From a bacterium (GTDB lineage: Bacteria; Verrucomicrobiota; Kiritimatiellia; CAIKKV01; CAITUY01), in the NCBI GenBank assembly GCA_037143175.1, contig JBAWZF010000001.1, positions 1-64,000 on the forward strand: DNA of 64,000 nucleotides. Reading direction: 5' to 3'. Below the pieces are notes generated by a model, which searched no databases, was not told the origin of the DNA, and was given only the letters and a program-made list of their open reading frames with translations. Made by a program: the position numbers and the translations under genes. Below, piece by piece: positions 48,902 to 55,225 of this stretch; position 1 is the first letter of the stretch; every line of letters starts with the position of its first letter.

Positions 48902-49628
48902 TTAGTTTCTTCCGCATGTACCACACGATTAGGGAGATGCCACCAAGTCCCAGCATGGCAGCGGTGATTTGTGCAATGGAATGCTGAAAGGTTGCCTTAT
49001 TAAAACCTTTTCCAAAGCTGCTGCCAATGGCGGCTACCATGATGGAACTGGGCAGGTATCCAAGAAATGAGCCCAGAAGGAAATAGCGGTGCTTCACTGG
49101 GGTTACCCCTAATATCAAGTTAGGAACAATCCCGGCAATCGGCAATTGACGCACCAGAAATATGGTAAAAGTGGATGGTTTTTTCAGCATGTTCCGGAGC
49201 CGCTGACTTTTCTCGATCCGTTTTTGCACCCAGTCACGCCCGCCCCATCGGGCAAAAACGAATGTGGCATAGGAACCGAATAGCGCGGAAAATTGCCCAA
49301 TGACGCTTCCGGTCGTGAATCCAAATAGCACGCCTGCAAGCCCGCATAGCAACATGCGAGGGATGCCGATGGCGATCAAAGCAACACTGACAAGAAAGTA
49401 GATTGATGAGGCCCACATTCCTAGTTGGCTGATATAGGCTTTCCACGCTACATCACTTGTGAGTGACTTTAATGGGGTGAAATGGACTACAGCAATACAA
49501 GCGACCACGATGAGGGCCATGAGCAGAAGCTTTTTCTCGGACTTACCAGCAGATTCGGCGGCCTCGATTTCTAACTCAATAGGAATGGGATCAGGTTCAT
49601 CATTTAGCCCGTTTTGTTCTAAGTTCAT
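48882..49628 (-). CDS. VTT/TVP38 (DedA-like) membrane protein
   Basis: 248 residues with a cytosolic acidic head (IPIELEIEAAESAGKSEKK) and about six membrane segments. The VTT core has RMLLCGLAGVLFGFTTGSVI, GSYATFVFARWGGRDWVQKR and FLVRQLPIAGIVPNLILGVT, with the family's re-entrant loop glycine and Arg/Pro residues. Related DedA proteins move undecaprenyl phosphate across the membrane. Its ATG overlaps the PAP2-GT39 stop by 4 bases (ATGA), so the two are translationally coupled. Confidence 0.85.
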   Translation of the reverse strand: MNLEQNGLNDEPDPIPIELEIEAAESAGKSEKKLLLMALIVVACIAVVHFTPLKSLTSDVAWKAYISQLGMWASSIYFLVSVALIAIGIPRMLLCGLAGVLFGFTTGSVIGQFSALFGSYATFVFARWGGRDWVQKRIEKSQRLRNMLKKPSTFTIFLVRQLPIAGIVPNLILGVTPVKHRYFLLGSFLGYLPSSIMVAAIGSSFGKGFNKATFQHSIAQITAAMLGLGGISLIVWYMRKKLITASAK

Positions 49629-52024
49629 GGGATTTTATTTCTGAAAAGAATGTGAATTCTCACCTGTTTCCCCTGTGAGTAATTGAAGCCGGTGATGATA
49701 TCCAGCGTTTCAATTCCGGGGGTACGAAAGACTTCTAATTGCGGCATCAGTCTGGCCTCGGTTACTACTAGAATGCCGGGGCCTGCTTCGGCGGCCCACT
49801 TAGGTAGATCTGGCCCCTCAAGCGGGGTTATAGGGCTGCGCCCCAGATAGAAATTAAGGCTCGGTTCTCCATAGCCACAGGTCGCTACAGGCGTCATGGG
49901 GGCACTGTTGAGTTGAATGATTTCCGCGATCAGGGGGGACAATTTCAACCGCTCGATAGCTGGAAGCAGGAACAGGCTGGCGGAAAGCAGGATCACCATC
50001 ATGCCGCCCCCGAGAACGCTCGCTACATACTCATGACGGGCTTTTCGGTAATAATGACAGGCCACTCCAGTCATTGATAAAAACACAGCCCCCAATATCG
50101 TAGCGGGGACCCGAATGCTGTAAAGGGGCATTTTGGCCATGACCCAAGGGGCAAGCATCAAGCCTAACCCCAGGGTCGATCCAATGGTAACGAAAAGCCT
50201 CAGGCCGATTTTTGCGGTTAGAGAGTTGTTCCCGGCGCGCCGCATACGGATTGCATGAGTGAGCCCCAAGGCTGAGGCTATCGCTAACGCAGGCCAGGCA
50301 GGAAGAATGTAATGCGGGAGCTTTGTGGCTACCACACTCATCAGAATAATGATCGGTGCCGCCCAACAGAAGAGAATGCGGATACGATCCTTCCCCTGAT
50401 CTGGCCATAAGGAGATTTTTGAGAAAACTCGCGGAAGATAAAGGATCCATGGGAAAAAGGTCAAAATCACAACGGGAACATAATAGAAATAAAATGCAAA
50501 AGATTTGCCGCCATGGCTTTCCATGGCCGTCAAGGATCGGCTAACGACATGTTTTCCAATGCCCATCCGCATAAACTCTCCATTCGTGGCCGCGTTTGCG
50601 GGCAGTCCCCAGGAAAGGAATAGGAGGGTGGAGGCAATAACGGCAAACACCAGCCAGCCCGCATAGCGCCAGGGTTTGAGGGCGCCATTGCGGGTGAAGA
50701 TCATGATGGCAACCATCACGAATAACGGTACGACAAGCCCTACAGGGCCTTTGGTCAACAAGGCTCCGCTGAGTGATAGAATGAGTAGAAGGAGATGCCA
50801 GAGCCGGAAACCGTTCAACCAGGACAGCATAAATGCCGCAATGGCTCCTGTGATACAGGCAAGCAGCAGCGCGTCGGTCGTTGCCGCAGTTCCGCTAACT
50901 GTCATCAATGGGGTTAGCATCAGGATAAGTCCGGCCCAAAAGGCGATTTTCTGATCGAAGAGACGGCGAGCAAGCCAGAACGTCAGAAGCACCGTAATCA
51001 GCGTGGCAATGGGGGCCACCAGGCGGCAGGATAGCTCGGAGACCCCCAAGACCCGAACCGGGATGGACATGAGCCAATAGATAAGAATGGGTTTATCAGG
51101 GCGGAGTTGATTGTTAAAAGTGGGGAAGAGATAATTTCCTGATTCCACCATTTCTACAGTTGCCCTTGAGAAACGCGGTTCGTCTCGATCCCAGAGCGAT
51201 GATGCCGAGGTTAAAGACAGGTAGATGGTAAAGACCAGAAAGACGAGGAGGAAAAACCCCCTGACCGGATTTCCCATTATCTTCCTTTTGCGATACCAAA
51301 CCGGTATCAGCCGGGCGAAAACCAGAAAGGCCCCGAGGGGACCCCAGACCCGGAGGAAATCGAGTACAAAAGGGGTGGCGCGAGCCCAGGACAAGTTGAC
51401 GAGAGAAAACAAAATAATGACACTCCCAATGATTACAAACCAACGGCGGCGTGGTTTCCACGGCCAGCGGCGGAGCACAGCCCCTGCGATGGCACTGGCG
51501 ATGATTCCGCAAGCGACCCCCGCTAACACATCACTGGGATAATGCCGCCCATCATAAACCCGCCCTGTTGCGACTCCGGCGTTCAGTATGATGGCGATGG
51601 GGGCGCCCCAGGGGGAGGTTGTGACAAGTGGCATGCAAAACGCAGCAGCAGTCGCTGCGTCTCCGCTGGGGAAGGAGTGACTGTTTTTGTAACCCGGTCG
51701 CTCACGCCCAACACCCAGTTTAAAAGGCCAGATTAAAACCGACATGATCAGGAGGGCCAGGATGATATGTGCCGCCCGTTTTCTCAGACCGCATATCCCT
51801 AAACCAGCGACAATGACGAGAATCACATCCCCCTTCCCGAAAGGCCGACAAAGATTCAATGCTTCCTGGAAGATGTGAATCTTGCCGACGCTTCTGGAAA
51901 AGGCCCGGATGGAATCCGAGAGGCTGTAGTCAAACGGGTAAATGATGACTGCCGCGGCCAGAAAGAAAAGGGCTGCCAGTAGAGTCGGGGCGTAATGATG
52001 TTTTTTCGATAAGCACATGGGCAC
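49625..52024 (-). CDS. PAP2 phosphatase fused to a GT39/ArnT-type glycosyltransferase
   Basis: 799 residues, two membrane enzymes in one chain. Residues 1-190 are a PAP2 phosphatase: LGVGRERP (KxxxxxxRP), SFPSGDAATAAAF (PSGD, with Asp where PSGH is usual) and GRVYDGRHYPSDVLAG (SRxxxxxHxxxD block). From about 235 a PMT-2/ArnT family transferase begins (SLTSASSLWDRDEPRFSRAT, with the catalytic DRDEPR), followed by GNYLFPTFNNQLRPDKPILI and many membrane helices. GT39-like enzymes use polyprenyl-phosphate sugars and PAP2 proteins dephosphorylate polyprenyl pyrophosphate. The fusion suggests local handling of the lipid carrier. The PSGD variation should be checked for activity. Confidence 0.86.
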   Translation of the reverse strand: MPMCLSKKHHYAPTLLAALFFLAAAVIIYPFDYSLSDSIRAFSRSVGKIHIFQEALNLCRPFGKGDVILVIVAGLGICGLRKRAAHIILALLIMSVLIWPFKLGVGRERPGYKNSHSFPSGDAATAAAFCMPLVTTSPWGAPIAIILNAGVATGRVYDGRHYPSDVLAGVACGIIASAIAGAVLRRWPWKPRRRWFVIIGSVIILFSLVNLSWARATPFVLDFLRVWGPLGAFLVFARLIPVWYRKRKIMGNPVRGFFLLVFLVFTIYLSLTSASSLWDRDEPRFSRATVEMVESGNYLFPTFNNQLRPDKPILIYWLMSIPVRVLGVSELSCRLVAPIATLITVLLTFWLARRLFDQKIAFWAGLILMLTPLMTVSGTAATTDALLLACITGAIAAFMLSWLNGFRLWHLLLLILSLSGALLTKGPVGLVVPLFVMVAIMIFTRNGALKPWRYAGWLVFAVIASTLLFLSWGLPANAATNGEFMRMGIGKHVVSRSLTAMESHGGKSFAFYFYYVPVVILTFFPWILYLPRVFSKISLWPDQGKDRIRILFCWAAPIIILMSVVATKLPHYILPAWPALAIASALGLTHAIRMRRAGNNSLTAKIGLRLFVTIGSTLGLGLMLAPWVMAKMPLYSIRVPATILGAVFLSMTGVACHYYRKARHEYVASVLGGGMMVILLSASLFLLPAIERLKLSPLIAEIIQLNSAPMTPVATCGYGEPSLNFYLGRSPITPLEGPDLPKWAAEAGPGILVVTEARLMPQLEVFRTPGIETLDIITGFNYSQGKQVRIHILFRNKIP

Positions 52025-52043: not shown

Positions 52044-53723
52044 TTATTTTTGCTTATTCAACAATGAGGCTCCCCCCAGGTCCCCCAGTGAGGCTTTTGG
52101 GAGATCCGTCCACAGTGTACCCGGGCCTGAATGCAGGATGTTGATGCGTATATCCGAACGCAACGATCCCGCGAATTCCCATAGGCTGAAGGCGGTTGGG
52201 TCTCCGAATGCAACGGTTTTCATCTGTGAACCATGGGCACGCTGGCTTTCGACCACCTGCATGGAATCGGCTGCCGCTTTCCCCAAGGTGAGAACTTTGC
52301 TGGCCCTGAAACCCGCGGTTTCTTTGTCAATTTGGGACATCAGACGAAGGGTTTCCGCTTGAATCTCAGCCACCTGTTTATCCTGATCCGCCAAAATCTC
52401 CGCTTTCAGCTTCAAGGTTTCCTGGGCTACCTGGACACGTTTTTGATCGATCAACGACATTTCCGTATTCAGTTCGCCCTGCTTTTTGGCGGTATTCTGC
52501 CGTTCCTTATTCGTGAGATCCTGTTCGACCGCCACGCTGGCTTTTTGGATGGGATCCAGGATTTGCATGGGCACCTCCACATGTCGTATCAGGGCGTTAT
52601 GAGTAATGATCTTTTTTTCGTTGAGAGTTTTGGACAACGCATCCGTCATGTCCGTTTGGAATTTTTCGCGACCTTCGCCGACGATGAAATCCTTTGCCCT
52701 GTATTCGGAACCTTTATTACGTGAAATAGATAGAATTTGCGGCATGATGATTTTGTCGATCACAGCAGGGAGATCCCCGTAACTGCGATACAACCATGCA
52801 ATATTTTCAGGCAGGAGTTCGAATTCCACGGTCATGTCGAGGCTGATCAAAAAGCCGTCTCGTGACGGAAACGAAACATATTCATTGAGAACGTGAATAC
52901 CCTCGGCGGATTGTTGCTGTTGAGGGGGGGGTGACTTTTTGGATGCGACCGGCATGGCGCGCTGAGCCATTTGCGATTCTGCCTGCTGGTAGTAATCACG
53001 TCGTTTGGCCGCCTGCTTCTCAAGCATTTTGTCCTGCAAGACATCCATGGCTGCATTTTGGGCTGAGATTTGCCCCTTGGTAATCACGGTACTACCTTCC
53101 TTACCCAAAAGAGAAACTTGATTGACGCCAATTTCCACAATATTGATTTGGAATTCTTTTGGATTAACGTAATACAGTCCTGGTTGAAGAATATCTGACC
53201 GTACTCCCTTTTCACCCGTGACGGCAAAAGCTCCCTCAGGGGCCTGCTTGCCGGAAAGCGAAGTGATGATACCGACGTATCCGATCGGGATCACAACGGC
53301 ATCTTCAATTGTGATCTCATAACCATAGGGATTGAGGCGGTAGGTGCCGGGCCCGAGAACACGGCGCCAGATTCCTTTTTGGGTTTCATTCGCCAAAAAT
53401 TCGCCCTGGGGCAATTCAGCGCCCACTTTGGCGGTCACAACACCGATTTTGCCTGGCAAAATTGTGGTAACAGGCAAAATAATCCGGTCAAACTCATAGG
53501 GATTCCGGAAATGGCGACCTTCGCCCAACACTTCCTCCTGAATTCCCATTTGACCTTGTTTTGCAAGAATTTCACCAGGAGGTAGGGCGTCTCCTGTCTT
53601 GGCCGTAATGACGGCCATTTGTTCAGGACCGACATAGAAACGGCAGAATCCCCATTCCCAAACAAAGACAACAAACATAACAACACCAAACGCGGCGGCA
53701 ATCATCGGGGTGAGTGATTTCAT
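52044..53723 (-). CDS. SPFH/Band 7 protein with three N-terminal repeats (B)
   Basis: 559 residues. One membrane helix at about 7-27, then three repeats of about 57 residues: from VGPEQMAVITAKTGDALPPG, ILPGKIGVVTAKVGAELPQG and IPIGYVGIITSLSGKQAPEG, each closing with a GRHFRNPYEF / GTYRLNPYGY / GLYYVNPKEF turn. An SPFH domain follows (about 275-400, YVSFPSRDGFLISLDMTVEF), then a coiled coil rich in Gln, Glu and Lys (to about 500). Between them is a Gln-rich linker (SKKSPPPQQQQSAEGIHVL). SPFH proteins form large membrane-attached rings or cages. It overlaps the stop of the paralogue upstream by one base (TAATG), with GGAGG in place. Confidence 0.85.
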   Translation of the reverse strand: MKSLTPMIAAAFGVVMFVVFVWEWGFCRFYVGPEQMAVITAKTGDALPPGEILAKQGQMGIQEEVLGEGRHFRNPYEFDRIILPVTTILPGKIGVVTAKVGAELPQGEFLANETQKGIWRRVLGPGTYRLNPYGYEITIEDAVVIPIGYVGIITSLSGKQAPEGAFAVTGEKGVRSDILQPGLYYVNPKEFQINIVEIGVNQVSLLGKEGSTVITKGQISAQNAAMDVLQDKMLEKQAAKRRDYYQQAESQMAQRAMPVASKKSPPPQQQQSAEGIHVLNEYVSFPSRDGFLISLDMTVEFELLPENIAWLYRSYGDLPAVIDKIIMPQILSISRNKGSEYRAKDFIVGEGREKFQTDMTDALSKTLNEKKIITHNALIRHVEVPMQILDPIQKASVAVEQDLTNKERQNTAKKQGELNTEMSLIDQKRVQVAQETLKLKAEILADQDKQVAEIQAETLRLMSQIDKETAGFRASKVLTLGKAAADSMQVVESQRAHGSQMKTVAFGDPTAFSLWEFAGSLRSDIRINILHSGPGTLWTDLPKASLGDLGGASLLNKQK

Positions 53724-55225
53724 TATTTGACCTCCTTGACACTGGGAAGATAGGGCTGGAAGAGGGCTCCAAGCCCATCTCCCTGATCGGTACTCAAGAT
53801 GGAGTCGATACGGGGCCCAACCTTTTTTAAGAAAATGTAGCGGGCATAATTCAAGCCGTTACTAAAGGCCTGGACCTGGCTGGTGAGCACGCCTGCCTCT
53901 GCGACGTTCTGCATATTAACTACGGCGGCATCGGCGTTTGCTTTAAGCATGATTGCCTGGGCCTGGGCCGCAGCGGCCTCATTGTCGATCTTAGCCACTT
54001 CCAGTTCCTGGTTGGCTTTGACGACGCGTACGGACTGCCCCTGCTGGGCGGCAATGACGGCACTGATGCGGGCAGTGTCGGCTGCGACCTTTTCGCCACT
54101 TTGCTGGGCCAGCATTTCCTGTTTCACCAATTCTGCTTTTGACTTGGCCTGACCAATTTCCTGGTCATATTTCCGGCTTTCCTGAACCGCCACCTCCCGG
54201 TCGCGGATAATGCTCGAGATCTGTTCGGGCGGACTGATGTTGCGGATCAGTACCGATTTGATGGAGATCCCCCAGCTTTCACACGTGGTTTTAAGGTGGT
54301 TTTCCAGATCCCTTTGGAATTGTTGGCGTGTCTCGCCCACGATGAACGTTGTTGCCGGGTGCTTGCTTCCCTCAATGCGGCTGAAACCGCGGGCACGGGG
54401 AAGAATAATCTTTTTAATGATATCATTCAGATCACCGACACGATGGGTAAGTAAGGCGGCCTTATCTCCTATGATGGCGTATTCAATAGTGCCTTCGACA
54501 TCGACTCCAAAACCGTCCATGGTCAAAAAGCTGATCGCATCGGCGCCACTCATCTCGAAGCGCTGACTTTGCAGGTTCACCTCGGCCACGCTGACCAGGT
54601 ACGGGTTGAGGTAGTAGGTTCCGGCATCAAGAATTTCCGGTAGTACGCCCTTCATTGTTTTTCCGACAAGAAACCCATTCGGTTTATTGGATGAGATTTT
54701 GCTAAGGACGTCATCTCCGATCAGGGAGGTCACAACGCCGGCATAGCCTGGCCGGATTTTAATGGCGTCAAATATATCGATCCGGTAAGCGTACGGGTTG
54801 ATACGATATTTTCCGGGACTTAAGACGTCGCGAACAATGCCTTTTTCTCCGGGGCCAGCGATGATTTGATTTGGCGGAAGATCCTTGCCATAGAGGCGGG
54901 TCAAAACGCCCAATTTGCCTGCGGGAATATCGGTGATCCTGTATATCCGCCAGTCCCAGGAGTAGGGGTTTCTGAAATATCTCCCTTCCGAAAGCACATC
55001 CAGTTGGATCCCTTTCTGGTTTTCGTTTTCCGCCAGAATCTGGCCACTGGGCAGATTTTCGCCTGTTTTATGAATCAAAATGGCGATTTCTCCGCTGTCC
55101 GGTTCAATCCGGCAGAAGTACCAATAGAAAACAGCTGAACCGGCCAGCAGGACCAGCGCAAAAATCGGAATAAATGCGGCGCGCATCATCGAAAACGAAG
55201 GGCCGCTGTCTGTCATTCTCATCAT
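53723..55225 (-). CDS. SPFH/Band 7 protein with three N-terminal repeats (A)
   Basis: 500 residues. Membrane helix at about 17-37 (FIPIFALVLLAGSAVFYWYF), then three repeats: SGEIAILIHKTGENLPSGQI, AGKLGVLTRLYGKDLPPNQI and PGYAGVVTSLIGDDV, with the turns YFRNPYSW, YRINPYAY and YYLNPYLV. The SPFH domain runs about 215-335, and an Ala/Gln/Glu-rich coiled coil (AEAGVLTSQVQAFSNGL at its end) about 340-460. It is paralogous to the downstream gene, and the two are translationally coupled, so a hetero-oligomer is likely. The function is unknown. Starts at 55225 or 55222 are possible. Confidence 0.85.
   Translation of the reverse strand: MMRMTDSGPSFSMMRAAFIPIFALVLLAGSAVFYWYFCRIEPDSGEIAILIHKTGENLPSGQILAENENQKGIQLDVLSEGRYFRNPYSWDWRIYRITDIPAGKLGVLTRLYGKDLPPNQIIAGPGEKGIVRDVLSPGKYRINPYAYRIDIFDAIKIRPGYAGVVTSLIGDDVLSKISSNKPNGFLVGKTMKGVLPEILDAGTYYLNPYLVSVAEVNLQSQRFEMSGADAISFLTMDGFGVDVEGTIEYAIIGDKAALLTHRVGDLNDIIKKIILPRARGFSRIEGSKHPATTFIVGETRQQFQRDLENHLKTTCESWGISIKSVLIRNISPPEQISSIIRDREVAVQESRKYDQEIGQAKSKAELVKQEMLAQQSGEKVAADTARISAVIAAQQGQSVRVVKANQELEVAKIDNEAAAAQAQAIMLKANADAAVVNMQNVAEAGVLTSQVQAFSNGLNYARYIFLKKVGPRIDSILSTDQGDGLGALFQPYLPSVKEVK

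Follow-up and report, generated by a model that had tools for sequence, protein, structure and literature searches.

Complexes built from two different SPFH proteins are the rule in HflK/C, PHB1/2, Erlin1/2 and FLOT1/2, and in canonical SPFH cages it is the SPFH1 half of the domain that contacts the membrane (PMC12624060, PMC11260169). The major vault protein (MVP) of eukaryotes, whose repeats are nine antiparallel three-stranded beta-sheet domains (PMC13347060), has no membrane helix, and a 2026 cryo-tomography paper still describes the MVP domains as exclusive to the vault, which it contrasts with all membrane-anchored SPFH cages (PMC13100048). Here we describe a pair of SPFH genes, A and B, of a Verrucomicrobiota bacterium, found at 52044-55225 on the minus strand of the window, that is, the whole 64,000-nucleotide stretch of DNA that was analysed and to whose positions all coordinates below refer. 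The pair represents a real, well-conserved architecture and a new variant among the SPFH cage proteins, of which we found no description in the open-access literature.

The region consists of exactly two complete genes, A then B, with the stop codon of A and the start codon of B sharing one base (TAATG; B starts within the stop codon of A). Their parts are as follows.

53723..55225, minus strand: gene A, a 500-residue SPFH protein with three SPFH1-like modules (open frame, Band_7)
55118..55180, minus strand: A, transmembrane helix, residues ~16-36 (helix in the model; hydrophobicity and flank charges in 39 sequences)
54932..55105, minus strand: A, module 1, residues 41-98, added SPFH1-like copy (profile-profile comparison, shuffles, model, module profile)
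54761..54931, minus strand: A, module 2, residues 99-155, added SPFH1-like copy (same evidence as module 1)
54584..54760, minus strand: A, module 3, residues 156-214, native SPFH1 (within the Band_7 match; continues into SPFH2 in the model)
54233..54565, minus strand: A, SPFH2, residues ~221-331 (models; PDB profile match to prohibitin)
53795..54226, minus strand: A, long helices, residues ~334-477 (model, moderate confidence)
52044..53723, minus strand: gene B, a 559-residue paralogue of A (open frame, Band_7, adjacency to A)
53646..53711, minus strand: B, transmembrane helix, residues ~5-26 (hydrophobicity and flank charges in 39 sequences)
53463..53630, minus strand: B, module 1, residues 32-87 (profile-profile comparison, shuffles, module profile)
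53292..53462, minus strand: B, module 2, residues 88-144 (same evidence as B module 1)
53133..53291, minus strand: B, module 3, residues 145-197, native SPFH1 (within the Band_7 match or at its start; profile-profile comparison, module profile)
52890..53132, minus strand: B-specific insert between SPFH1 and SPFH2, residues ~198-278, partly Gln/Pro-rich (A-B alignment)
52548..52889, minus strand: B, SPFH2, residues ~279-392 (alignment with A, Band_7)
52224..52547, minus strand: B, helical region, residues ~393-500 (sequence, aligned to the A helix)

Both proteins exceed the curated Band_7 cut-off of 23.6 bits and thus belong to the SPFH superfamily: the match covers residues 156-363 of A (E 4.6e-25, 89.1 bits) and residues 160-415 of B (E 1.1e-15, 58.6 bits). 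In front of SPFH2, each carries three modules of ~57 residues. All 15 pairwise comparisons among the six modules beat each of 500 shuffles (z 8.4-28.8), profile-profile probabilities between modules are 95.6-99.9%, and invariant Gly, Asn and Pro positions are kept through the modules in both the A and the B families. The sequence-only reading had described two coupled paralogues, each with a membrane helix, three such repeats, an SPFH domain and a helical C-terminus, and this description is borne out by the open frames, the Band_7 matches, the shuffles and profile-profile comparisons and, for A, the modelled helix. Where it placed the three repeats ahead of the SPFH domain it needs amending, as the third repeat lies within the Band_7 match and is SPFH1 itself. 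Because that match begins at module 3, module 3 is the native SPFH1 half of the domain and modules 1 and 2 are two added SPFH1 copies, so that the proteins are better described as carrying SPFH1 in three tandem copies, followed by SPFH2. The N-terminal part of B on its own gives a faint Band_7 match, below the cut-off, at the SPFH1 end of the Pfam model (E 0.03).

The repeats are most simply explained as duplicates of the SPFH1 half that the protein already had. A tree built from 84 modules places each of the six module positions in a clade of its own; A1 and B1 are joined (support 0.95), as are A3 and B3 (0.85), while the placement of A2 and B2 is without resolution. Given the A1+B1 and A3+B3 clades, the triplication most likely preceded the duplication that gave rise to A and B.

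A first AlphaFold2 model of A, made with the four closest sequences, gave a predicted local distance difference test score (pLDDT) of only 53 in the repeats and was not used for the modules; the second alignment had 18 rows, comprising the window protein, L003 and the wider multi-module class discussed below. The resulting model of A residues 36-345 (mean pLDDT 87.3, predicted template modelling score 0.70) has three like beta-modules in series, then SPFH2. Each module is modelled as a small beta-unit of antiparallel strands, three of them long, and these long strands recur from module to module (11-17, 69-75 and 126-132; 37-43, 94-100 and 158-164; 55-61, 112-118 and 176-182 in model numbering), the last spacing being larger owing to an insert in module 3. 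That module has five strands and continues into SPFH2, in agreement with prohibitin, where the beta5-beta6 linker is the border between SPFH1 and SPFH2 (PMC12624060). Fold prediction for one copy, proposed beforehand as a check, returned a confident model of three like modules in series. Ordinary flotillin architecture alone, the outcome named in advance as counting against the proposal, is not what was found, since two extra modules are present.

In Foldseek searches of the PDB, the A model aligns with prohibitin, Erlin, stomatin, HflK/C and flotillin over ~190-206 columns, or about one module plus SPFH2, with E down to 1.8e-10, which places A within the SPFH1-SPFH2-helix fold; profile searches of PDB sequences likewise match SPFH2 to prohibitin (E 3.2e-7) and stomatin. 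That it is canonical SPFH proteins which match most closely as rigid bodies, over module 3 and SPFH2, would suit a dome in which only module 3, SPFH2 and the helix assemble as in HflK/C, with modules 1 and 2 serving as a stalk or client-binding arm and forming no lateral tiers. The poor rigid superposition on MVP described below points the same way. However, the same invariant positions occur in all three modules, the model places the three in series with high confidence, and four- or six-fold repetition of the module in other proteins suggests a structural building unit; we therefore hold the arm arrangement to be possible but doubtful. As a separate observation, giant-virus SPFH proteins in BFVD (A0A3G5A5B7 and A0A3G5A4K1 of Harvfovirus, A0A2H4UTE5 of Bodo saltans virus) align with the three-module A model over 359-371 columns (TMq ~0.50), longer than the alignments of canonical SPFH proteins, and they may also have tandem modules.

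Among the PDB matches listed, MVP is the only protein aligned over a length sufficient for the whole modelled part of A: entries 9r86, 9z4w, 9bw5, 9mxv, 4v60, 9bw6 and 6bp7 give alignments of 384-403 columns at probability 1.00 and E between 5e-9 and 2e-6. From its length, the alignment is inferred to run through modules 1 and 2. By fold, then, tandem beta-repeats are followed by an SPFH shoulder in one chain, and the three long strands of each module in A agree with the three-stranded domains of MVP. The superposition is nevertheless non-rigid, with TM scores of 0.31-0.35 and root-mean-square deviations of 13-15 Å, and the parts therefore do not share MVP's arrangement as a rigid whole. The earlier proposal that the order of parts is that of MVP except for the membrane anchor thus stands for the order itself, for the modules in series and for the MVP-long alignment, but does not extend to a rigid match.

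At the sequence level the link to MVP is not seen. The suggested comparison of the repeats with MVP repeat profiles went against the proposal: the Pfam Vault/MVP models have no match to A or B at E<=10, PF01505 has no match at the A/B loci and none above cut-off in 241 Verrucomicrobiota genomes, hhalign of the modules against MVP gives no significant match, and profile searches of PDB sequences do not retrieve MVP. Searched with the module profile, a hidden Markov model, MVP gives no match, and neither do HflK, HflC and QmcA, against which hhalign of the modules likewise gives nothing significant. As single SPFH1 domains are missed too, common descent of the modules and the MVP repeats is neither proved nor disproved by sequence.

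It could be argued from the shared series of tandem beta-modules, SPFH and helix, from the long Foldseek alignment and from the three strands per module (PMC13347060) that A/B belong to the MVP family, their modules being genuine MVP repeats by common descent and their complex a membrane-anchored vault. We consider this highly improbable: no Vault model or profile matches significantly, there are three repeats rather than nine, the membrane helix is absent from MVP (PMC13100048), and independent duplication of SPFH1 accounts for the same order of parts. Apart from module number and membrane helix, A/B also differ from MVP in having two subunits and a predicted periplasmic location. A closed barrel made of two half-cages, as in the vault, is unlikely for A/B given the N-terminal membrane helix. 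A/B are thus vault-like in the order of their parts, which includes a long helix after SPFH, and loosely in fold, but are not MVP by membership.

The pair is kept with its order intact. Outside the window, each of the 38 distinct loci read has A and B adjacent, A then B, and in an even draw of the phylum A was matched in 52 of the 241 Verrucomicrobiota genomes (E<=1e-30), with full-length matches down to 50% identity and at least two matches in each positive genome. Among outside records the nearest is a Verrucomicrobia metagenome-assembled genome with 77% identity in A; the scan of genome contigs gave this single close relative, and beyond Verrucomicrobiota the evidence was drawn from plasmid records and from viral-collection contigs. 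A and B themselves were not found in the scans of viral contigs. The strict adjacency, the overlap of stop and start codons in the window and the known examples of paired SPFH complexes (PMC12624060, PMC11260169) argue against A and B each forming a homo-oligomeric cage of its own, with the operon serving only co-expression. The four- and six-module relatives, which are single proteins with no recognised B partner in the loci read, lend this arrangement some support, but we think it very unlikely.

Adjacent paralogues with periplasmic domains are also characteristic of HflK/HflC (SPFH3), with the reservation that the topology of A/B is derived from flank charges only. The shared features of A/B, HflK/HflC and PHB1/PHB2 are an N-terminal membrane helix, N-in/C-out topology, the SPFH1-SPFH2-helix order and a fold match over one module plus SPFH2; the difference is one SPFH1 there against three in both A and B. 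The best NCBIfam match of A is hflK, at 31.7 bits, below the equivalog cut-off of 159.4, and B has no match to NCBIfam hflK or hflC. A further parallel is SPFH11a/b (Hinderhofer et al. 2009, PMC2636767), two SPFH paralogues that always neighbour each other within an operon; going by that description only, SPFH11b lacks a coiled coil, unlike A/B. The genome to which the window belongs has no Band_7 match besides A and B and no HflK at E<=1e-20, and it encodes FtsH.

Flank charges favour an N-in/C-out orientation in 34 of 39 A and 32 of 39 B sequences, so that the modules are predicted to face the periplasm. Because Band_7 is present in both proteins, the folds match, adjacency is strict, A1+B1 and A3+B3 form clades, the flank charges agree, hflK is the best NCBIfam match of A, FtsH is present and HflK is not found in the same genome, and paired SPFH complexes have precedents, we consider it reasonably probable that A and B are subunits of one hetero-oligomeric, inner-membrane-anchored periplasmic SPFH cage, an HflK/C-type dome with a taller beta-wall. 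By comparison with the solved HflK/C, prohibitin, Erlin and flotillin complexes, A and B would alternate in the ring, and the long helices would close the dome and enclose a patch of membrane. The two added modules would form extra beta-tiers between the membrane and the SPFH2 ring, lifting that ring off the membrane, making the dome taller and its chamber larger; it would then be module 1 instead of module 3 that lies at the membrane. Such a cage would separate off part of the membrane and determine which membrane proteins, or proteases such as FtsH, it encloses. Analogy with HflK/C and prohibitin makes this enclosure role likely, but it is the weakest step, the architecture being much better supported.

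Several points weigh against the single cage. Topology is predicted from flank charges, while the oligomeric state and the interaction with FtsH are drawn by analogy with solved SPFH complexes, and the modules of neighbouring subunits may make no lateral contacts. Around A/B, the loci compared revealed no conserved partner gene. A/B as a general replacement for HflK/C was rejected, as both coexist in several genomes (e.g. G035, G020, G037, G048).

Distant matches extend the theme beyond the pair. These are single proteins of ~600-780 residues with the same module, and include L063 and L064 of Verrucomicrobiota, a Paraburkholderia plasmid gene (WP_012406471.1) and a Novosphingobium protein; by similarity, Rhizobium and Streptomyces plasmid genes also belong here, several annotated "flotillin family protein" and some "SPFH domain-containing protein". 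L086-L091 are further members. Some members (L087, L088, L089 and L091 among them) lie on viral-collection contigs; the loci found there were used as alignment rows, with no claim that they are viral. The module profile, built partly from these same sequences, finds three modules in A (70, 77 and 50 bits) and B (70, 77 and 65 bits), four in most wider-class proteins tested and six in L087, L088, L091 and L089, in the last of which one module is split into two profile matches. A and B thus fall within a working group defined by at least three modules in series before SPFH2 and after an N-terminal membrane helix. Six is the longest series seen, and nearest to the nine repeats of MVP. At E<=1e-40 the wider-class profile matches 16 of the 241 phylum genomes, some of these matches being A genes themselves (G041, G037, G020). 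The single-chain proteins share with A/B the module, the N-terminal membrane helix and the order of modules, SPFH2 and helix; they differ in that a single gene encodes four or six modules, that these modules are longer and contain an insert, and that the N-flank lacks positive charge, so that their topology may be reversed. To judge from module counts, the A/B pair is a three-module, two-gene variant of this broader bacterial theme, in which module number varies.

A Cys-Arg pair directly follows the membrane helix in both window proteins (A residue 38, B residue 27; window ~55114 and ~53645, minus strand) and is nearly invariant across the B family, a possible inter-subunit disulfide or membrane contact. 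In one related locus (L006, genome G003) gene B is broken by one in-frame TAG, which is either a pseudogene or an assembly error. Genes flanking A/B are kept only among near relatives of the window lineage. Nineteen bases downstream of B, at 49628-52024 on the minus strand, lies a gene for a 799-residue protein that combines a PAP2 phosphatase domain and a PMT-type mannosyltransferase domain in one chain, and which near relatives keep beside a VTT-domain gene. A conserved third operon partner was rejected, as conservation of these downstream PAP2/mannosyltransferase and VTT genes is confined to lineages close to that of the window. Elsewhere in the same genome (G000, contig C29, 14779-15431), two adjacent NfeD-domain genes (L134, L135) hint that a divergent SPFH5/FloA-type SPFH protein may be present alongside. 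Other Verrucomicrobiota genomes have paired, adjacent hflK-like frames of ~640-700 residues (e.g. G066:C49, G059:C23, G111:C26), some with two hflK stretches per frame; these large pairs are a further SPFH group.

The occurrence in bacteria of a membrane anchor, tandem beta-modules and SPFH in one chain, with module copy numbers of three, four and six, constitutes an intermediate architecture that may help to explain the origin of vault-like cages. Tentatively, the SPFH1 module could be seen as the building unit of vault walls, with the three-, four- and six-module bacterial proteins as vault-like cages, anchored in the membrane and increasing in height with module number, and MVP as a nine-module eukaryotic member that lost the anchor. 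With a bacterial pair of ~500-residue proteins, easier to express and image than the vault, the origin of the vault and the role of its wall modules become directly testable.
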